The position numbers were made by a program, and so were the translations under genes. 64,000 nucleotides of DNA from Bacteroidota bacterium (GTDB taxonomy: Bacteria; Bacteroidota; Bacteroidia; B-17B0; Aurantibacillaceae), in contig JAIUNM010000008.1 in assembly GCA_020162035.1 (NCBI GenBank), positions 62,001 through 126,000 on the forward strand, in the 5' to 3' direction. The notes under the pieces are model-generated. The model was not told where the DNA came from. It was given only the letters and a program-made list of their open reading frames with translations, and searched no databases. Each line of letters opens with the position of its first letter. Positions within the stretch are counted from its first letter, which is position 1. This document shows, one piece after another, positions 11,588 to 50,275 of the stretch.

Positions 11588-13030
11588 TTACAATTTTATA
11601 CAAACATTTTTAGGTTCTGTAAAAAAATCTAATGCTTCAAAACCACCTTCTCGCCCTACTCCACTAGCTTTTACACCACCAAAAGGAGTACGTAAATCTC
11701 TTAACAACCAACAATTAATCCAAACAATGCCTGCATGTAATTGGTTAGCCATTTTTTGTGCTTTTGTTATGTTTTCTGTCCAAACTACACTTGCTAAGCC
11801 ATAAATTGTACTGTTTGCCATTTTTAAAACTTCATCTTCGGTATCAAAAGGTGTAATTGTAACTACTGGTCCAAAAATTTCTTCTTGGTTTGTTCTGCAA
11901 TTGTAATCCAAACCTTCAATAATTGTTGGTGCAATGTAATAACCTTGGCTTAATTCATTTTCTAAAATTATTTTATTTCCACCACAAAGTATTGTTCCGC
12001 CTTCTTTTTTAGCAAGTTCGATGTAACTTAAAATTTTTTCTTGATGTTGTTTTGATACAACGGCTCCAATTTTAGTTTTTTCATCTAAAGGATTACCAAT
12101 GGTAAGTTGTTTTGTTTTATTTACAAAATCAACTTTAAATTTTTCGTATATTTTTCTTTCAATAAAAATTCTTGAACCACACAAACATATTTGTCCTTGA
12201 TTAGCAAAAGACGAATGCATTGTTGTGCTTAACATTTTATCATAATCACAATCGGCAAAAATTATATTAGGGTTTTTTCCACCCAACTCTAAAGAAAGTT
12301 TTTTAAACATTGGTGCTGCAATAGATGCAATATGTTTACCAGTAACTGTACCACCGGTAAATGATATTAATGGGATATTTGGATGAGACACAATTGCATT
12401 ACCAACTTTAGAGCCTAACCCATGAACAATATTTAAAACACCATTTGGCAAACCTGCTTCTATGCAAATTTCTGAAAGTAAAAAGGCTGTCATTGGAGTA
12501 ATTTCGCTTGGTTTAGCAACTACAGTACAACCCGCAGCCAAAGCTGGTGCTATTTTCCAACTAAAAAGATATAAAGGTAAATTCCATGGGCTTATGCAGC
12601 CTGCAACACCAACAGGTTGGCGCAATGTGTAGTTAACTGCTGTTTCCTCCATACTATGCGAATTTGCCGCATAATGTAAAATGCCTGTACCATAAAAATT
12701 AAAATTTGCTGCAGCTCGGGGTATATCAACAGTTTTAGCTAGTTTTAAAGGTTTACCATTATCTATGCTTTCAGCTAACGCTAATTTATCAAGGTTTTTT
12801 TCTATTAATGATGAAATTTTAAGTAAAATTTTACTGCGTTGTTCCTTAGGTAAAACACTCCAACTGTGAAAAGCATTCTTTGCTGCAACATACGCTAATT
12901 CAACATCTTTTTCGTCACTATCAGGTATTTGCGAATATACCTTGCCAGTACTTGGTTGATAATTATCAAAATATAAATTGCTTATTGGTTCTATAAGCTG
13001 GCCATTTATGTAATTTTTTAATTTTATCAT
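11588..13030 (-). CDS. Aldehyde dehydrogenase, probably (amino/hydroxy)muconate-semialdehyde type
   Basis: A 480-residue NAD(P)-dependent aldehyde dehydrogenase. Visible family residues are N150 in SPWNLPL, K173 in VAKPSE, the general base E248 in LELGGK and the catalytic C282 in NQGQICLCGSR. The C-terminal NCWLLRDLRTPFGGVKASG and GREGG motifs are those of the ALDH8 / 2-hydroxymuconic or 2-aminomuconic semialdehyde dehydrogenase group. This suggests a role in tryptophan/kynurenine or aromatic catabolism, but no other gene of that pathway is present here. It is the first gene of an operon with the J-domain protein and methylmalonyl-CoA epimerase. Confidence 0.9.
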   Translation of the reverse strand: MIKLKNYINGQLIEPISNLYFDNYQPSTGKVYSQIPDSDEKDVELAYVAAKNAFHSWSVLPKEQRSKILLKISSLIEKNLDKLALAESIDNGKPLKLAKTVDIPRAAANFNFYGTGILHYAANSHSMEETAVNYTLRQPVGVAGCISPWNLPLYLFSWKIAPALAAGCTVVAKPSEITPMTAFLLSEICIEAGLPNGVLNIVHGLGSKVGNAIVSHPNIPLISFTGGTVTGKHIASIAAPMFKKLSLELGGKNPNIIFADCDYDKMLSTTMHSSFANQGQICLCGSRIFIERKIYEKFKVDFVNKTKQLTIGNPLDEKTKIGAVVSKQHQEKILSYIELAKKEGGTILCGGNKIILENELSQGYYIAPTIIEGLDYNCRTNQEEIFGPVVTITPFDTEDEVLKMANSTIYGLASVVWTENITKAQKMANQLHAGIVWINCWLLRDLRTPFGGVKASGVGREGGFEALDFFTEPKNVCIKL

Positions 13031-13037
13031 ATAAGTT

Positions 13038-13045
13038 CAAATTTA
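13038..13045 (-). promoter_or_regulatory. -7 promoter box before the aldehyde dehydrogenase gene
   Basis: On the minus strand TAAATTTG (13045-13038) matches TAnnTTTG and ends seven bases before the ATG at 13030. No TTTG lies at the right distance upstream, so support comes from the -7 box only. Confidence 0.35.
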
Positions 13046-13097: not shown

Positions 13098-13128
13098 TTG
13101 CACCTCTTAAATTTGTGTTATAATTTTG
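13098..13128 (+). promoter_or_regulatory. Promoter of feoA, apparently giving a leaderless mRNA
   Basis: TTG (13098-13100) and TAATTTTG (13121-13128) are 20 bases apart, a good -33/-7 match. The box ends only four bases before the feoA ATG at 13133, so transcription would start at or next to the start codon. No Fur-like palindrome was recognised. Confidence 0.6.
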
Positions 13129-13132
13129 TAAA

Positions 13133-13360
13133 ATGTCTCTTCTATCTTATATTAAACCAGGTAATAAAGCTATAATTACAAAAATAATAGATGAACAGTT
13201 AAGTTTACAATTACTAGATTTTGGTTGTTATATTGGGCAAACTATAGAAATATCATATAAAGCACCATTGGGTTGTCCAATTGCAATAAAAATATTAGAC
13301 TCGATAATTAGTTTACGAATTGCCGATGCTGAAAAAATTGAAGTAGAATTAATAAATTAA
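13133..13360 (+). CDS. feoA: Ferrous iron transport protein A
   Basis: A 75-residue SH3-like protein of the FeoA family, a cytoplasmic partner of the FeoB iron transporter. It contains the family features ISLQLLDFGCYIGQTIEI and a C-terminal ISLRIADAEKIEVE, which corresponds to the usual ALRxxEAxxIxV ending. It lies four bases upstream of feoB, so the two are surely cotranscribed. The length is normal for a stand-alone FeoA. The start is placed at the ATG that follows the promoter box by four bases. Confidence 0.9.
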   Translation: MSLLSYIKPGNKAIITKIIDEQLSLQLLDFGCYIGQTIEISYKAPLGCPIAIKILDSIISLRIADAEKIEVELIN

Positions 13361-35032: not shown

Positions 35033-35905
35033 ATGAAAGTTGCAGGATTTACAATAATAAGAAACGCAGTAAAGTATGATTACCCAGTGGTAGAAGCAAT
35101 AAATTCAATATTACCAATTTGTGATGCTTTTTATGTTGGTGTTGGCAATAGCGAAGATGAAACCAAAAAATTAATTGAAAATATAAATTCTGATAAAATA
35201 AAAATTATTGATACCATTTGGGATGATAACTTAAGAGTGGGCGGCCATGTTTTAGCTAACGAAACAAATAAAGTTTTTGACGCAATACCAAAAGAATTTA
35301 ATTGGTGTTTTTATATACAGAGCGATGAGTGTGTGCATGAAGATGATTTGAATACTATAAAAACTGCAATGCAAAATAATTTATTAAATAAAAACATAAA
35401 TGGTTTATTATTTAAATACAAACACTTTTATGGGCAATATAATTATATTGGAGTTGGCAGACGTTGGTATGCAAACGAAATTAGAATAATTAGAAATGAT
35501 AAATCAATTCGATCATATAAAGATGCGCAAGGTTTTAGGTTTACAAACAACACTAAATTAAAAGTAAAAAACACAAACGCATTTATTTACCATTATGGAT
35601 GGGTTAAACCACCTAAAGCGCAACAAGCTAAACAACAAAATTTTCATAAAATGTGGCACGATGATAATTGGGTTAACGAAAATGTGAAAAAAAACGAAGA
35701 ATTTGATTACAGTAATATTGATTTACTTGAGATTTATAAAGGCACTCACCCATTGGTATTTAAATCACGCATAAAAAATGCAGATTGGGAATTTATTTAC
35801 AACTCTAAATTTGTGAAAACAAATTTTAAATATAAATTTTTATATTTTATAGAAAAGTTAACGGGTTGGCGTATTGGCGAAAATAAAAACTATATAGAAG
35901 TTTAA
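35033..35905 (+). CDS. Glycosyltransferase, family 2-like
   Basis: A 290-residue cytoplasmic protein with the opening MKVAGFTIIRNAVKYDYP, typical of small GT2-like transferases that modify surface glycans. The acidic motif FYIQSDECVHEDD (about residues 94-106) is the likely DxD-like metal/nucleotide-sugar site. A downstream basic region, GVGRRWYANEIRIIRND, could contact the acceptor. It starts seven bases after tamL and is probably cotranscribed. Its stop codon overlaps that of convergent smpB within TTAA. Sugar and acceptor are unknown. Confidence 0.8.
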   Translation: MKVAGFTIIRNAVKYDYPVVEAINSILPICDAFYVGVGNSEDETKKLIENINSDKIKIIDTIWDDNLRVGGHVLANETNKVFDAIPKEFNWCFYIQSDECVHEDDLNTIKTAMQNNLLNKNINGLLFKYKHFYGQYNYIGVGRRWYANEIRIIRNDKSIRSYKDAQGFRFTNNTKLKVKNTNAFIYHYGWVKPPKAQQAKQQNFHKMWHDDNWVNENVKKNEEFDYSNIDLLEIYKGTHPLVFKSRIKNADWEFIYNSKFVKTNFKYKFLYFIEKLTGWRIGENKNYIEV

Positions 35906-36354
35906 AACTTGCGATTAGTTTCTCTTTCAGTATCTCGTTTTTTTATTGCTTCGCGTTTATCAAATTGTTTTTTGCCTTTAGCTAAAGCTATATCAAGTTT
36001 AGCAAACCCTTTATCACTTATATATAATTTTACAGGAATTATAGTTAACCCACTGTCTTTTACTTTTTTTTGAAGTTTATTAATTTCTAATTTAGTAAGT
36101 AATAATTTGCGTTCTCTTAAAGGTGTGTGGTTATAAAATGAAGCTTCTGAGTACTCGGTAATATGCATGTTTTTTATAAACAACTCATTATTTACGATAT
36201 AACAATAACTATCTGCTAAACCAGCTTTTCCTTCTCTTATTGATTTTATTTCGGTACCTTTTAACACAATGCCTGCGGTAAGCCGTTCAATAAATTCGTA
36301 ATCAAATTTAGCTCGTCGGTTTTCAATATTAATTCTATTACTTAATTTAGGCAT
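35902..36354 (-). CDS. smpB: SsrA-binding protein SmpB
   Basis: SmpB binds tmRNA and brings it to stalled ribosomes for trans-translation. The 150-residue sequence is full length and has the conserved NRRAKFDYEFIERLTAGIVLKGTEIKSIR core and HTPLRERKLLL. Its basic tail, KKQFDKREAIKKRDTERE, inserts into the ribosomal decoding channel. The tmRNA gene ssrA is not in the window. Its ATG follows a TAATTTTG promoter box by four bases. The start also overlaps the possible TTG start of the divergent acetyltransferase gene. Confidence 0.97.
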   Translation of the reverse strand: MPKLSNRINIENRRAKFDYEFIERLTAGIVLKGTEIKSIREGKAGLADSYCYIVNNELFIKNMHITEYSEASFYNHTPLRERKLLLTKLEINKLQKKVKDSGLTIIPVKLYISDKGFAKLDIALAKGKKQFDKREAIKKRDTERETNRKF

Positions 36355-36358
36355 TGTA

Positions 36359-36366
36359 CAAAATTA
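36359..36366 (-). promoter_or_regulatory. -7 promoter box of smpB, four bases before its ATG
   Basis: Minus-strand TAATTTTG (36366-36359) is followed by TACA and then the ATG at 36354. The spacing equals that at feoA and suggests a leaderless mRNA. I found no good -33 TTTG. Confidence 0.45.
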
Positions 36367-36371
36367 ACAAA

Positions 36372-36863
36372 ATGCAAATTGTAAAACTAATTAAAGCAAA
36401 TAATAATGATGTTTTAAGCATAGCGGAATTAGCTAAAACTATATGGCATCAACATTACCCAAGCATAATAAGTATTGAGCAAATTAATTATATGCTTAAT
36501 AAAATGTATTGTAAGCAAAGCTTAGAAGAGCAAATAAATGTATTAAACCACAAATTTTATTTTATAATGTTTGAAAATGAAAAAATTGGTTTTATTTCTG
36601 TAAATGAAACAGAACCAAATAATTGGCACATAAATAAGTTTTATATTTTACAAACTATTGCTGCAAAAGGGGTTGGGACACACTGTTTTAATGAAATTTT
36701 AAAGTTACTTACGCCAAAAAAAATTACCTTAACTGTTAATAGAAAAAATTATAAATCCATTAATTTTTATTTTAAAAATGGATTTAAAATTAACGAGGTA
36801 AAAGATTTTGATATAGGGAATGGTTATTTAATGGAAGATTTTATAATGGCTTGGGGTAATTAA
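36372..36863 (+). CDS. GNAT-family N-acetyltransferase
   Basis: A 163-residue acetyl-CoA-dependent acyltransferase of the GNAT fold. The acetyl-CoA loop is seen as LQTIAAKGVGTHCFNEIL (about residues 97-114). The C-terminal NRKNYKSINFYFKNGFKI motif is typical of RimI-like GNAT enzymes. I choose the ATG at 36372 (MQIVKLIKAN), because the alternative TTG at 36354 overlaps the smpB start codon and adds only six residues. Substrate unknown. It may acetylate a small molecule or protein. Confidence 0.85.
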   Translation: MQIVKLIKANNNDVLSIAELAKTIWHQHYPSIISIEQINYMLNKMYCKQSLEEQINVLNHKFYFIMFENEKIGFISVNETEPNNWHINKFYILQTIAAKGVGTHCFNEILKLLTPKKITLTVNRKNYKSINFYFKNGFKINEVKDFDIGNGYLMEDFIMAWGN

Positions 36864-36925: not shown

Positions 36926-36933
36926 TATATTTG
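36926..36933 (+). promoter_or_regulatory. -7 promoter box of the histidine kinase gene
   Basis: TATATTTG at 36926-36933 fits TAnnTTTG and ends four bases before the GTG start at 36938, the same spacing as feoA and smpB. No TTTG is found at the expected -33 distance, so only this box supports it. Confidence 0.45.
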
Positions 36934-36937
36934 TTAA

Positions 36938-39796
36938 GTGCGTAAATTATTTTTTATACTTTTTTTATTGTTTTTTACAAAACTAATTTATGCGCAACAA
37001 CCTGCATATTTTATATTAGGAGAAAATCAATTTAAGGGCTTGCATATTTACGATATAATTCAAGACAAGGAGCTGAATTATTGGATTGCAACAAACGAAG
37101 GTTTATATTATTTTAATCATTATAAGTATGTGAAAATTGAATGTGAAAACGCCAAGAGTAGTGCAGTATTTAATTTTGTAATAACAAAAAAAGGAACTAT
37201 TTTTTGTTTTAATTTAAATAATCAAATTTTTAAAATTGAAAATAAAACTTTAAACTTATTTTATGAATTAAAAACCGACGAAATAAAAACTGATATAAAT
37301 CTTTCTGTTATTTCAGATAGTTTATTATTAATAGGGGCTAAAAAAATAATACTAATATCTGAAGATGGCACAATAAAAAAGAATTTTTCGTACAAAAATC
37401 ATTACTTAGGTCCAGCATTTAAACTATTTAATGAAAAAACAATTTACCATTTAAATTCAAGCGATTCCATTTTAATAATATCTAATAAAAGTGCATCTTA
37501 TGCACATTTACATTGTGTTAATTTTAAATTAGTAAACAATGACGTATTACATTTTTTCAAAATCAAATCAAATTATTTTGCAATAAGTTTACAAACAAAT
37601 ACAATTTATAATTTTGATCCTAATAAAAACGAATTGTTTTTATCTAATAATGACTCACAATTAAATACAAAATCAGCATTAAGACTATATTCAACTGATA
37701 ATGAAGCCTGGATAGCAGGAGGTTTACCTGGAGTTTACAAAATTAGTAGTCTTAAAAATGATTCGCTAAAATTAATATTTAAAGATTTTTTTATTTCGAA
37801 TGTATATAAAGACTTAGAAGGAAATATTTTGTTAAGCACATTTGATAAAGGGATTATTGTGGTGCCAGACGTTAACAGTCCTGATGTAGTTTGTAAAAAT
37901 CAAAATGGGTTTTTTACTTCTATTTTATATAATTCTAAAGAAAAATTAATATTAGGAGCTTCTAACGGTAAACTTTATTCCTTTAAAAACAACAATTTAT
38001 CAATTTTAAATAATAATGGTAAAAAGGCAATAGAACACTTATTTCAATTAAATGGTTCGCCTTTAATAATTTTCGATAATGGTGAAATTACAGCATACAA
38101 TACAACTAACAATCAATTTAATACATTATGCGATGCTTCACTTAAAGATGTTGTGTTTGTTGCACCTTTTGAATTTTATATAGGTACAAACAGAGGAATT
38201 TATAAATGTAATTGGAATAAAACTGAAGGGTATAAAACAGAATTTATTCCAAACATTAATTATAGGATATATGCAATTGCTTACAATCCATTTTACCAGT
38301 TAATTTATGCGGCAACATCAAATGGTTTATATACAATAAATAAATTAGGTAATTGCCATAAAGTATACATTAATAATAAAGACATGTATATTAATACATT
38401 ATTTTATAAAAACAGTAAAATATTTGCTACAGATAAAAAAGGATATATTCATATTATTGAAAATGAAAAAATAATTTCAACAATACAACTTAAACAACAA
38501 AACAAAACGTATAGTTTTTCTAAATTAAACATATACAACAATACTATAATTGCTAAAAATGCTAATGAATTATGTCAATTTAATTTAAACGGAGATTATA
38601 TTAAAACATTAACTAATTCTAAAGGCAATAAAGACTTAAGAATTTTTGATTATTGTTTTAATAATGATACTTTATGGGTATGTAATGCAAATGGAATTCA
38701 AGAAATTGTATTAAATAAAATATTTCAAGACACTATTAAGCCTAAAATATTTATAACTGAAATTAAAATTAACGATAGTTTAAAAATTAATAAAACAAAT
38801 AATTTCAGCAGTAACAAAAAAAAGTTTCAATTCACCTTAATTTCACCTTCAATATTAAATTCTAACAATACTTTTTACCATTATAAACTGCAAGGCAACG
38901 ACGAAACTTGGTCAATTAATACTTATTATGCCAACGAAATAATTTATAATGCATTAGCTCCAGGAAATTACACTTTTAATGTGTTTGCCGAACGACAAGG
39001 TATTGTAAGTAATACCATTTCGTATTCGTTTGTTATTAATGCGCCGTTTTATACAAAGTGGTGGTTTATTTTATTTCTTATTTTAATTTTTTTAATGATT
39101 GTATACAAAATATATAATTGGAAATTAAGTATTCAACAAAAAAAGGCAAAACAAATAAACGAACTTAATGCCTCAAAACTTACAGCAATTCAATCGCAAA
39201 TGAATCCACATTTTATTTTTAACTCATTAAATTCTATACAAGATTTAATTTTAAAAGGTGATGTTGAAAAATCTTACTCCTACATAACCACTTTTTCTAA
39301 TTTAGTTAGAAGAACATTAAGTTATTCGGATAAAGACTTTATTGATTTTGAACAAGAAATTAAATTATTAGAATTATACTTATCATTAGAAAAATTACGC
39401 TTTAAAAAAGATTTTAATTTTAATCTTCAAACAAATCAAATTGTAGATATTCAAATACCTCCTATGCTTATACAACCATTTATAGAAAATGCATTAATTC
39501 ACGGTTTATTACATAAAGAAGGCGAAAAAAAATTATCTATACTATTTGAATTAAACGAAATTTTAACTTGTAAAATTGAAGACAATGGCATTGGAAGAGA
39601 AAAAGCTAAAGCCATAAAAATTAGGCAACGAAACAACCATGAATCTTTTTCGGTAAAAGCAATTAAAAAAAGATTTGATATTTTAAGTGAAACTTTAAAC
39701 GGAAGCTTTGGCTATAGTTATGAAGATATTAAAGAGGATGGCGTTGTTGTTGGAACACGTGTAACTTTATCTATACCTATAAAACATAAATTTTAA
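36938..39796 (+). CDS. LytS-like sensor histidine kinase with beta-propeller sensor
   Basis: A 952-residue membrane sensor. A signal peptide (ending KLIYAQQ) exports a large N-terminal region (about 25-600) of propeller-type repeats, for example LNYWIATNEGLYYFN and YQLIYAATSNGLYTI. Next is a Y_Y_Y-type beta domain (about 605-700), then one membrane helix near 705-725. The cytoplasmic kinase is of the LytS/His_kinase type with the phospho-acceptor H758 in QMNPHFIFNSLNSIQDLI. An HATPase region follows, with IPPMLIQPFIENALIHG and DNGIGREKA. The start is GTG. The gene is paired with the LytTR regulator 74 bases downstream. The ligand is unknown. Confidence 0.92.
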   Translation: MRKLFFILFLLFFTKLIYAQQPAYFILGENQFKGLHIYDIIQDKELNYWIATNEGLYYFNHYKYVKIECENAKSSAVFNFVITKKGTIFCFNLNNQIFKIENKTLNLFYELKTDEIKTDINLSVISDSLLLIGAKKIILISEDGTIKKNFSYKNHYLGPAFKLFNEKTIYHLNSSDSILIISNKSASYAHLHCVNFKLVNNDVLHFFKIKSNYFAISLQTNTIYNFDPNKNELFLSNNDSQLNTKSALRLYSTDNEAWIAGGLPGVYKISSLKNDSLKLIFKDFFISNVYKDLEGNILLSTFDKGIIVVPDVNSPDVVCKNQNGFFTSILYNSKEKLILGASNGKLYSFKNNNLSILNNNGKKAIEHLFQLNGSPLIIFDNGEITAYNTTNNQFNTLCDASLKDVVFVAPFEFYIGTNRGIYKCNWNKTEGYKTEFIPNINYRIYAIAYNPFYQLIYAATSNGLYTINKLGNCHKVYINNKDMYINTLFYKNSKIFATDKKGYIHIIENEKIISTIQLKQQNKTYSFSKLNIYNNTIIAKNANELCQFNLNGDYIKTLTNSKGNKDLRIFDYCFNNDTLWVCNANGIQEIVLNKIFQDTIKPKIFITEIKINDSLKINKTNNFSSNKKKFQFTLISPSILNSNNTFYHYKLQGNDETWSINTYYANEIIYNALAPGNYTFNVFAERQGIVSNTISYSFVINAPFYTKWWFILFLILIFLMIVYKIYNWKLSIQQKKAKQINELNASKLTAIQSQMNPHFIFNSLNSIQDLILKGDVEKSYSYITTFSNLVRRTLSYSDKDFIDFEQEIKLLELYLSLEKLRFKKDFNFNLQTNQIVDIQIPPMLIQPFIENALIHGLLHKEGEKKLSILFELNEILTCKIEDNGIGREKAKAIKIRQRNNHESFSVKAIKKRFDILSETLNGSFGYSYEDIKEDGVVVGTRVTLSIPIKHKF

Positions 39797-45718: not shown

Positions 45719-47467
45719 TTAAACTTCTATAGTATTGGATAAATGATACATTGAGTAAAATTTACTGTTTTTATTGTTTAACAAATTAAATGGCGTATCT
45801 GTTTCAATTATTTGCCCTTTATCTAAAACAACAATTTTATCTACATTTTTAATTGTAGATAACCTATGGGCGATAATAATTGAGGTTCGATTATGGGCTA
45901 TTTTAGCAGTAGCTATTTTAATTAATTCTTCGGTATTTGAATCTATGGTTGCTGTTGCTTCATCTAAAATAAATAGTTCAGGGTTATAAACGTAAGCTCT
46001 TATAAAAGCAATTAGTTGTTTTTGACCGGCTGATAAACTGATTCCACGCTCACTAACAACATAATCAAACCCATTTGGCAAAGATAAAATGTAATTATAT
46101 AAACCTATTTCTTTTGTAGCTTCAACAACTTTATTATAACTAATATTTGGATTATTTAAAGTTATGTTATTAAAAACCGTATCGTTAAATAATTGAACAT
46201 CTTGTAACACAACACCTGTATTTTGCCTTAAACTTGTTAGTGTATATTTGTTAATGTTAATGTTATCAATTTCAATAATTCCATTATTAATGTCGTAAAA
46301 CCTACTTAATAAATTAATAATTGTACTTTTGCCAGAGCCTGTTGCTCCAACAAACGCAACAGATTCTCCTTTTTTAATTTCGAAATTAATATTTTTTAAA
46401 ACCTCAACATTTTTAGTATAAGAAAACGAAACATTTTTAAAACTAATTTTATCTTTCATTTTAGTAAATTTTATTTTACCAGTATCTTCAATTATTTCGT
46501 TAGTATCTAAAATTTTAAAAACGCGTTCGGCACTTACAAAACCCATTTGTAAAGTATTTAATCTATCGGCTAACATTCTTATAGGTCTAAACATTAAATT
46601 TACCATCATTATAAAAAAAGTTAAGTCGCCTAAATTAATGTTATGTTTGTTTGCGTTAAATCCTGCATACCAAATAACCAATGCTATAGAGCAGCCTGCT
46701 AATATATCAACAACAGGAAAAAAAACAGAATAATAAAATATTGATTTAATGTTTGCAACGCGATGTTCATTATTAATTTGTTTAAACTTTTCATATTCGG
46801 CCTTTTGTCTATTAAAAATTTGAACCAGACTCATTCCAGTAATATGTTCTTGTGTAAAAGTGTTCAAATTACTAACTGCATTTCTTACCATTGTAAATGT
46901 TTTTTTTACACCTCGCTTAAATAATGCAGTTGCAATAAATAAAAAAGGGATGGTACTAAAAGCTAATAAAGCTAAAGCCCAATTTTGATTTAGCATAACA
47001 GAACAAAAAATAATCAGCATTAAAATATCTCCTGCAATAACTATAAAACCTTGTGCAAACACATCACTTAAACTTTCAATATCGCTTATGCATCTGGTAA
47101 CTAGCATTCCTATTGGTGTATTGTCAAAATAGGCATTTTTAAGTTTAAGAATATGTTTATAAACTTGGTTTCGTAAATTATTTATTATGTTTTGTCCTAT
47201 TAAACTAGTTATTCGAATGTTTAATATTTGAAATGCAGCATCTAACAATAAAGAGATTAATATGAGTAAGCAATAAAAATTTAAATGATTTATGTTTTTA
47301 TTAGAACCAACTGCATCGTTAAGTACATTTTTAATAAGTAAAGGCCTAATAATTGCAAAAGAAGCAATAATTATAGTTAATAATACAGATGCAAAAAACA
47401 ATTTTTTATATTGTTTAGTGTAAGATAAAATTCTAAAAATTAATTTGGTATTTAAATTTAAATTCAA
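45719..47467 (-). CDS. ABC-type exporter, fused permease and ATPase
   Basis: A 582-residue half-transporter of the MsbA/multidrug exporter type that works as a homodimer or heterodimer. The first about 310 residues are six membrane helices. The ATPase domain has Walker A GATGSGKST (374-382), Q-loop LRQNTGVVLQD, signature LSAGQKQ and Walker B LFILDEATATID with the H-loop in IIAHRLSTI. The start is TTG, sharing bases with the TGA of truA (TTGA, minus strand 47467-47464). No ATG is available before the first helix. Substrate unknown; lipids or drugs are typical. Confidence 0.92.
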   Translation of the reverse strand: MNLNLNTKLIFRILSYTKQYKKLFFASVLLTIIIASFAIIRPLLIKNVLNDAVGSNKNINHLNFYCLLILISLLLDAAFQILNIRITSLIGQNIINNLRNQVYKHILKLKNAYFDNTPIGMLVTRCISDIESLSDVFAQGFIVIAGDILMLIIFCSVMLNQNWALALLAFSTIPFLFIATALFKRGVKKTFTMVRNAVSNLNTFTQEHITGMSLVQIFNRQKAEYEKFKQINNEHRVANIKSIFYYSVFFPVVDILAGCSIALVIWYAGFNANKHNINLGDLTFFIMMVNLMFRPIRMLADRLNTLQMGFVSAERVFKILDTNEIIEDTGKIKFTKMKDKISFKNVSFSYTKNVEVLKNINFEIKKGESVAFVGATGSGKSTIINLLSRFYDINNGIIEIDNININKYTLTSLRQNTGVVLQDVQLFNDTVFNNITLNNPNISYNKVVEATKEIGLYNYILSLPNGFDYVVSERGISLSAGQKQLIAFIRAYVYNPELFILDEATATIDSNTEELIKIATAKIAHNRTSIIIAHRLSTIKNVDKIVVLDKGQIIETDTPFNLLNNKNSKFYSMYHLSNTIEV

Positions 47468-48222
47468 TAAATATGTTTGGGGTATTTGATCCCGGTTAAA
47501 AATAAAGCTTCGGCAGGTGCATTATTTCCAGCTTTTGATCTGTCTTTACATTCTATAATATTTTTAAATTCTTGTAATGTTATTTTGTTTTTACCAACTA
47601 ATAATAAAGTACCAACAATTGCGCGTACCATTCCTCTCAAAAACCTATCAGCTGTAATTACAAAGCGCCACTCGTTAACATTTGTTTTTTGCCAAACTGC
47701 TTTTGTTATTTTACAATTGTTAGTTTTAGTTTGTGTGTGTAATTTACTAAAGCTTGTAAAATCATTATAATCATACAGTATTTTAGCAGCTTTATTCATT
47801 AGTTCAAAATCAACATCTCCATAAACATATGTGCTAAAATTTTCAATAAATGGGTTTTTATGTTGATGTATAAAATAATAATAGGTTCTTTCAATTGCAT
47901 CAAAACGAGCGTGTGCATTTTCTTTAACCAACACTATATCGTTTATAGAAATGCTTGTAGGTAATACTGTATTTATTTTATATATCCAGTGTTTTTTATT
48001 TTGAGCTAAGTCTAAATAATTACTATCAAAATGCGCAATATAATTTTTAGCATTAACTCCTGTATCTGTTCTACCACAACCAACCAATTCAATTTTTTCT
48101 TTCATAATCATGCTCATTTTTTCCTCTAAAACTTGTTGTATGGTGTTAACTGTATTGTTTTGTATTTGCCATCCATTATAAGTTGAACCGTTGTATGACA
48201 GAGAAAGAAAATACCTTTGCAT
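47464..48222 (-). CDS. truA: tRNA pseudouridine synthase A
   Basis: TruA converts U38-U40 in the tRNA anticodon arm to pseudouridine. The 252-residue protein has the catalytic aspartate D53 in GRTDTGVNA, the N-terminal YNGSTYNGWQIQ motif and the C-terminal FLRGMVRAIVGTLL motif. The Asn in GVNA replaces the common His of GVHA. Length is normal. It is translationally linked to the ABC exporter by the TTGA overlap. A TAAATTTG box lies six bases before its ATG. Confidence 0.96.
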   Translation of the reverse strand: MQRYFLSLSYNGSTYNGWQIQNNTVNTIQQVLEEKMSMIMKEKIELVGCGRTDTGVNAKNYIAHFDSNYLDLAQNKKHWIYKINTVLPTSISINDIVLVKENAHARFDAIERTYYYFIHQHKNPFIENFSTYVYGDVDFELMNKAAKILYDYNDFTSFSKLHTQTKTNNCKITKAVWQKTNVNEWRFVITADRFLRGMVRAIVGTLLLVGKNKITLQEFKNIIECKDRSKAGNNAPAEALFLTGIKYPKHIY

Positions 48223-48228
48223 GAGCTA

Positions 48229-48236
48229 CAAATTTA
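48229..48236 (-). promoter_or_regulatory. -7 promoter box just upstream of truA
   Basis: Minus-strand TAAATTTG (48236-48229) ends six bases before the ATG at 48222. No matching -33 element is visible. It may give a near-leaderless transcript for truA and the ABC exporter. Confidence 0.35.
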
Positions 48237-49350: not shown

Positions 49351-50275
49351 TTTTAATTGCATTGTTGTTTTGGGTGTAACCGCAAGTGGGAAAACTAATT
49401 TTGCTTGTAAACTTGCACATGAACTTAATGGGTCAATTATTAGTGCGGATAGCAGGCAAGTTTATAAACAATTAACTATTGGCACTGGTAAAGATTTAAA
49501 TGAATATAATATAAATGGGAATAAAATAAATTATTATGGTATTGATGTTTGCGATGCAGACAAACAATTTTATTTACATAATTTTTGCGATTTACTTTTA
49601 TTATCCTTTAATAAAATAACTAACGATAATAAATTACCAATAATTTGTGGAGGAACAGGCTTATACCTTGATGCATTAGTTAAAAACTTTGAGTTAACTC
49701 AAATACCAGAAAATTATATTATTAGAAGTGAATTAAAAAATAAAAGTAAAGATGACTTAATTAAATTATTAGCCAATTATAATTTTGAAAACACGTTGCA
49801 TGTAGATAAAAACTCCATTAAGCGTTTAATTAGAGGCATTGAAGTAGCAGAATATTTAAAATCTAATACTATAACAAAATCTATACTGCCTTATAAACCT
49901 ATTTATTTTGGCATTAAAGTAAATGCAAATGAATCTGAAAACTTAATAAAAACTCGATTAATAAGTAGGCTTAACAATGGTTTAATTGAAGAGGTAGAAA
50001 CTCTTTTAAAAAATAATATTTCTTTTGATAGATTATTGCAATTAGGCTTAGAGTATAAATTTATTGCTATGTATTTGCAAAGTAAGATTGATTATCAAAG
50101 TTTAATTATTCAATTACAAACTGCAATTATTAAATATAGCAAAAGGCAATTAACATGGTTTAAAAAGATGGAAAAAGAAGGGGTAATAATTAATTGGATT
50201 GAGAAAGAGAATTTAACTTCGGTAACACTAAATAACATAATAAATTCCATAAAAAAAGCGAAACCAATTAATTGA
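49325..50275 (+). CDS. miaA: tRNA dimethylallyltransferase (MiaA-like, divergent)
   Basis: MiaA transfers a dimethylallyl group to A37 of tRNAs reading UNN codons. The 316-residue protein has the P-loop GVTASGKT near residues 17-24, ISADSRQVYKQLTIGTGKDL, IICGGTGLYLDALVK and a C-terminal RQLTWFKK. The third motif corresponds to SADSMQVYxxMDIGTAKP in typical MiaA but is altered (GTGKD for GTAKP). This is a divergent subtype, although the catalytic aspartate and threonine are retained. The ATG lies inside yraN. The stop codon lies within a hairpin shared with the convergent PUR gene. Confidence 0.85.
   Translation: MLFTQHLNNFNCIVVLGVTASGKTNFACKLAHELNGSIISADSRQVYKQLTIGTGKDLNEYNINGNKINYYGIDVCDADKQFYLHNFCDLLLLSFNKITNDNKLPIICGGTGLYLDALVKNFELTQIPENYIIRSELKNKSKDDLIKLLANYNFENTLHVDKNSIKRLIRGIEVAEYLKSNTITKSILPYKPIYFGIKVNANESENLIKTRLISRLNNGLIEEVETLLKNNISFDRLLQLGLEYKFIAMYLQSKIDYQSLIIQLQTAIIKYSKRQLTWFKKMEKEGVIINWIEKENLTSVTLNNIINSIKKAKPIN

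Follow-up and report, generated by a model that had tools for sequence, protein, structure and literature searches.

Bacteroidota lack Shine-Dalgarno sequences and, to our knowledge, how their ribosomes choose a start codon is still being worked out. According to the sections on 5' ends in the published reports, ~3.7% of 5' UTRs in Bacteroides thetaiotaomicron are shorter than 10 nt, sensor kinases among them (PMC7366714), 5.5% of the mRNAs of Flavobacterium psychrophilum are leaderless (PMC9723704), and 13% of the leaders in Flavobacterium johnsoniae are of 10 nt or less (PMC6847099). Leaderless minorities have thus been published for both Bacteroides and Flavobacterium, and the phenomenon as such is already known in the phylum. 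In the passages on promoters from these sources, F. johnsoniae transcription starts 4 or 5 nt after a -7 box with the refined consensus TAHHTTTG (PMC6847099), and the F. psychrophilum box lies at -12 to -5 (PMC9723704). With such spacing, a box followed by any four bases and a start codon puts +1 on the first base of that codon. The alternative mode in the same genomes, as outlined in the relevant part of PMC6847099, is Kozak-like initiation on leadered mRNAs, also without a Shine-Dalgarno sequence, for which the leader carries A at -3. In Actinobacteria and Deinococcus-Thermus, leaderless genes were predicted much as we do here, from a box at a fixed short distance and with shuffled controls (Zheng et al., 2011; PMC3160421). 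Those groups differ, however, in having a TANNNT-type box ~12 bp upstream and in the size of the class, which exceeds 20% of genes.

We investigated three genes with a four-base gap between box and start codon, feoA, smpB and a sensor histidine kinase gene, in a 64,000-nucleotide stretch of a Bacteroidota draft genome (the window). A preliminary description had proposed that their mRNAs are leaderless, and had noted similar boxes at six bases from truA and at seven bases from an aldehyde dehydrogenase gene. All five boxes are present in the sequence at these distances, with the four-base spacers and start codons of the first three exactly as described (Table 1), and all three four-base boxes fit TAHHTTTG. 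The arrangement resembles that of the leaderless mRNAs of B. thetaiotaomicron and Flavobacterium, as the consulted portions of those reports describe them, in phylum, in the TAnnTTTG box, in its spacing to the start and in belonging to a small minority of genes. It differs in that 5' ends in those model species were inferred from RNA data, whereas the class considered here is predicted from sequence.

Table 1. Positions in the window of the genes and promoter elements discussed in the text.
Feature	Position	Strand	Comment
Aldehyde dehydrogenase family gene	11588..13030	-	Divergent from feoA
Aldehyde dehydrogenase -7 box, TAAATTTG	13038..13045	-	7 bases before ATG; leader would be ~2-3 nt
Candidate feoA -33 element, TTG	13098..13100	+	20 bases 5' of the -7 box
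Second -7-like feoA box, TAAATTTG	13108..13115	+	17 bases from ATG; leader would be ~13 nt
feoA -7 box, TAATTTTG	13121..13128	+	Followed by TAAA and ATG 13133 (4-base gap)
feoA (75 aa, Pfam FeoA)	13133..13360	+	Predicted transcript start 13133 if leaderless
smpB (SsrA-binding protein)	35902..36354	-	Predicted leaderless mRNA from 36354
smpB -7 box, TAATTTTG	36359..36366	-	Followed by TACA and ATG 36354 (4-base gap); conserved in the genus
GNAT acetyltransferase gene	36372..36863	+	Divergent from smpB, whose promoter extends into it
Kinase -7 box, TATATTTG	36926..36933	+	Followed by TTAA and GTG 36938 (4-base gap)
LytS-type sensor kinase gene (His_kinase, Y_Y_Y)	36938..39796	+	GTG start; in-frame TAA directly 5'
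truA	47464..48222	-	
truA -7 box, TAAATTTG	48229..48236	-	6 bases before ATG; leader would be ~1-2 nt

The draft genome that contains the window, placed in Bacteroidota on the basis of its SmpB relatives, comprises 3.17 Mb in 31 contigs, of which 1.66 Mb (52%, window included) was sampled. A coding-hexamer model that is blind to upstream sequence called 1,385 genes, and 1,371 of these were used for counts; all gene starts in this genome are therefore computational, from a coding-score caller. At distances (d) of 0 to 9 bases between TANNTTTG and the start codon, the numbers of boxes were 0, 0, 0, 6, 23, 11, 9, 15, 7 and 5, and the mean over 5-24 bases was 6.8 per position. The preliminary description had made its proposal depend on a genome-wide excess over shuffled controls, and such an excess was found: the 23 boxes at d = 4 compare with a mean of 1.34 and a maximum of 4 in 100 dinucleotide shuffles. 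Every one of the 23 fits TAHHTTTG and, among all 256 patterns of TANN plus a 4-mer, TTTG ranked first at this distance in count as well as in excess. By contrast, a raw tally of TANNTTTGN4ATG in the whole genome came out only a little above that of the reversed pattern (108 and 93, respectively) because most copies of the motif lie in coding sequence, hence the need to count at gene starts. Operon-internal genes carried a four-base box in 2 of 536 cases. In a complete member of the genus (400 kb), TTTG boxes at d = 4 numbered 3 and TTTA boxes 5. We also noted that TANNTTTA is enriched at starts in the window's own genome (21 genes at d = 4, 19 at d = 5) and, in several relatives, occupies the box position at smpB or feoA; it is probably a weaker -7 variant in the genus.

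For other Bacteroidota, we pooled 80 contigs retrieved through an SmpB alignment, almost all of them titled as Bacteroidota, with 20 stretches from relatives, nearly all of other families. Counts cover 1,244 non-smpB genes from these ~100 contigs, and some neighbor genes (pcm, recJ) recur since the pool is centered on smpB. Boxes at d = 0-8 numbered 0, 0, 0, 1, 18, 9, 5, 3 and 3, those at d = 9-14 numbered 0, 4, 0, 1, 2 and 2, and from 15 to 25 bases there were ~10 per position, while permuted motifs averaged at most 1.2 at any position. The distribution is bimodal, as the totals of 38 (4-8 bases), 9 (9-14) and 54 (15-20) show, and the trough has a Poisson probability of ~1e-12; in the window's own genome the trough is shallower (52, 23 and 34). 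Neither data set has a box at 0-2 bases. The excess was repeated when unrelated Bacteroidota contigs were pooled in bins of 33-54% GC, and was weakest in the highest-GC bin. The trough suggests that very short leaders, of ~5-10 nt, are disfavored, which sets the leaderless class apart from leadered genes. We did not find this trough in the literature searched, which omits most subscription journals, and within that scope it is new here.

The base at -3 also differs between the two classes in the pool. It was A in 6 of 38 (16%) short-distance genes (d = 4-8) and in 74 of 173 (43%) leadered genes (P = 0.0016), so that short-distance genes lack the enrichment associated with Kozak-like initiation in the part of PMC6847099 that describes it. 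In the window's own AT-rich genome A at -3 was not reduced at d = 4 (52% A). Base composition over codons 2-8 showed no clear difference. From the boxes, the spike at four bases, the trough, the conservation described below and the loss of A in the pool, we infer that mRNAs with a four-base box are, with high likelihood, leaderless or nearly so and form a distinct minority class. Of the original proposal, the leaderless reading is upheld by the excess, the published spacing, conservation and the pool, less securely for feoA and the kinase than for smpB. The distinct initiation mode that it proposed would be that of a separate minority class, and is not one unknown in Bacteroidota, given the leaderless mRNAs already reported there.

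The mechanism would run as follows. At predicted promoters of the housekeeping sigma-ABfr type, with the -7 box TAnnTTTG close to the gene, RNA polymerase would begin transcription at the start codon's first base, and boxes 5-8 bases away would give a leader of 1-4 nt. Translation would then begin at a 5'-terminal AUG or GUG, presumably by an intact 70S ribosome or by a 30S subunit together with fMet-tRNA, both of which are known to initiate on leaderless mRNAs elsewhere. A leaderless class with such sharp bounds could be read from the sequence of any Bacteroidota genome, providing a gene list for a second initiation mode.

The strongest case, and the most conserved member of the predicted class, is smpB. 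A TAnnTTTR box lies 3-5 bases from a start codon in 29 of 31 smpB genes of the genus, and exactly four bases away in 21, although in a few of the 31 the distance depends on the choice of start. Across these 31 genes the box columns hold 0.7-1.8 bits, except -9 and -5, whereas the spacer from -4 to -2 is random (0.04-0.13 bits). T stands at -1 in 22 of them and a purine at +1 in all 31. A pyrimidine/purine step is favored by RNA polymerases at the start, and the two positions agree with what would be expected of a transcription start. In the wider phylum, TAHHTTTG lies 3-8 bases before the start in 24 of 99 smpB genes, compared to 39 of 1,244 other genes (P ~7e-13). The start codon is GTG in 24 of the 31 genus genes, a preference limited to smpB, as four-base genes in general show no GTG enrichment (1 of 23 in the window's own genome, 0 of 18 in the pool). 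In E. coli, GUG works poorly as the start codon of leaderless mRNAs, and a predicted leaderless smpB with GTG is thus a natural test case.

A deeply conserved, predicted leaderless smpB, usually started by GTG, appears to be undescribed in the literature searched, which leaves out most subscription journals; neither this nor the trough is stated in the portions consulted of the B. thetaiotaomicron and Flavobacterium reports. We consider it doubtful that a leaderless smpB is a selected regulatory arrangement across much of Bacteroidota. Intact 70S ribosomes can initiate on leaderless mRNAs under conditions that impair normal initiation. If the arrangement were selected, synthesis of SmpB, the key partner of tmRNA, would continue during ribosome stalling or a shortage of initiation factors, and ribosome rescue would be tied to an initiation mode of its own.

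A divergent ORF of at least 120 codons begins close to smpB in 30 of the 31 genus members, usually 17-23 bases away, so that the smpB promoter has its upstream half within the divergent gene. In the window the GNAT and smpB start codons are 17 bp apart (36355..36371), and most members of the genus retain this tight arrangement. The 60 bases upstream of the GNAT gene contain no TAnnTTTR box, hence its promoter would be of another type or located within smpB.

Could the four-base boxes be chance matches in a genome of 30% GC, with transcription starting farther upstream? The motif is common, with 109 copies in the window (itself below the 146 expected), and the raw genome-wide count above, taken alone, would leave room for this explanation. 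However, chance does not account for 23 boxes at called starts where 1.3 are expected and none at 0-2 bases, nor for the virtual absence of the pattern inside operons, its repetition in unrelated Bacteroidota contigs across the GC bins, or the fixed position of the box at smpB throughout the genus. We therefore regard chance as a very unlikely source of the class as a whole; single genes, about one in twenty, may nevertheless be chance matches. An artefact of start calling is likewise very unlikely. TAA or TAG within a box could act as an in-frame stop and force the start to be called just downstream; distances of 4 and 7 would place TAA in frame, and the third base is A in 14 of the 23 boxes. 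Yet the third base is T or C in the other 9 and in most pool boxes, and other TANN patterns that carry the same stop lack an equal excess.

A more serious contender, which we hold to be possible though not the expected case, accepts the promoters but not the leaderless status of feoA and the kinase: feoA would be transcribed mainly from its second box, and transcription or translation of the kinase would start elsewhere than assigned. This does not extend to smpB. For feoA, the second box, which the preliminary description did not mention, is present in the sequence, and the nearest box in relatives is usually 7-15 bases from the start; conservation of the four-base box was sought in these relatives and not found. 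The four-base box in the window would accordingly be a local change or secondary to the box at 13108. Against this, TTG 20 bases upstream accompanies only the four-base box of feoA. Among the window boxes examined, feoA is the only one with TTG 17-22 bases 5' of its -7 box, as the preliminary description had observed of its -33 partner; the -33 element (TTTG/TTG) is weak in F. johnsoniae too, in the promoter section of PMC6847099. The gene is thus ambiguous as a leaderless case and may use its other box. For the kinase, orthologs at ~50% identity have neither the box nor ATG or GTG at the equivalent place, with a single exception that has ATG. On the other hand, the in-frame TAA abuts GTG 36938 and closes the reading frame, making this the first possible start, and it is the only one that retains the whole signal peptide. 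A leaderless GTG start remains plausible for this gene. We also noted that in kinase orthologs of the genus (L162-L165, L167) the frame is open across the signal peptide with no ATG or GTG nearby, and that near the signal peptide same-genus orthologs offer ATT, ATA or ATC only, or a more distant TTG. Translation of these orthologs may begin at a non-canonical codon or farther away.

Returning to the predicted leaderless class as a whole, we estimate that it comprises some 2-3% of all genes, spread over many kinds of housekeeping gene. Boxes 3-5 bases from the start make up ~10-15% of genes with a recognizable box, some chance matches included. In the window's own genome the four-base genes include pyrE, purN, kdsA, dusB, radA, miaA and ribF, as well as genes for an MntR/DtxR-type regulator, aspartate decarboxylase and a MarC protein. 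Those in other Bacteroidota include recR, dnaG and genes for a RelA/SpoT protein, a BrxC-like protein and an Asp/Glu racemase that is probably murI. The gene for ribosomal protein S17, a sampled four-base case, is operon-internal (gap of 9 bp) and probably a chance match. Of the 13 genus members in which a radA box was found, 9 have it at a distance that drifts between 4 and 8 bases; miaA was left out of the genus comparison because its start placement is unclear in most relatives.

Scans of the window for Rfam families and tRNAs gave no matches. The shortfall of TANNTTTG across the window, relative to the shuffles, gives the impression that genes avoid promoter-like boxes in their interior. 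Lastly, the genome has two miaA-like genes (C9:92255 and C8:111358-111471, the latter at ~49358-49471 of the window), and two are also present in most members of the genus.
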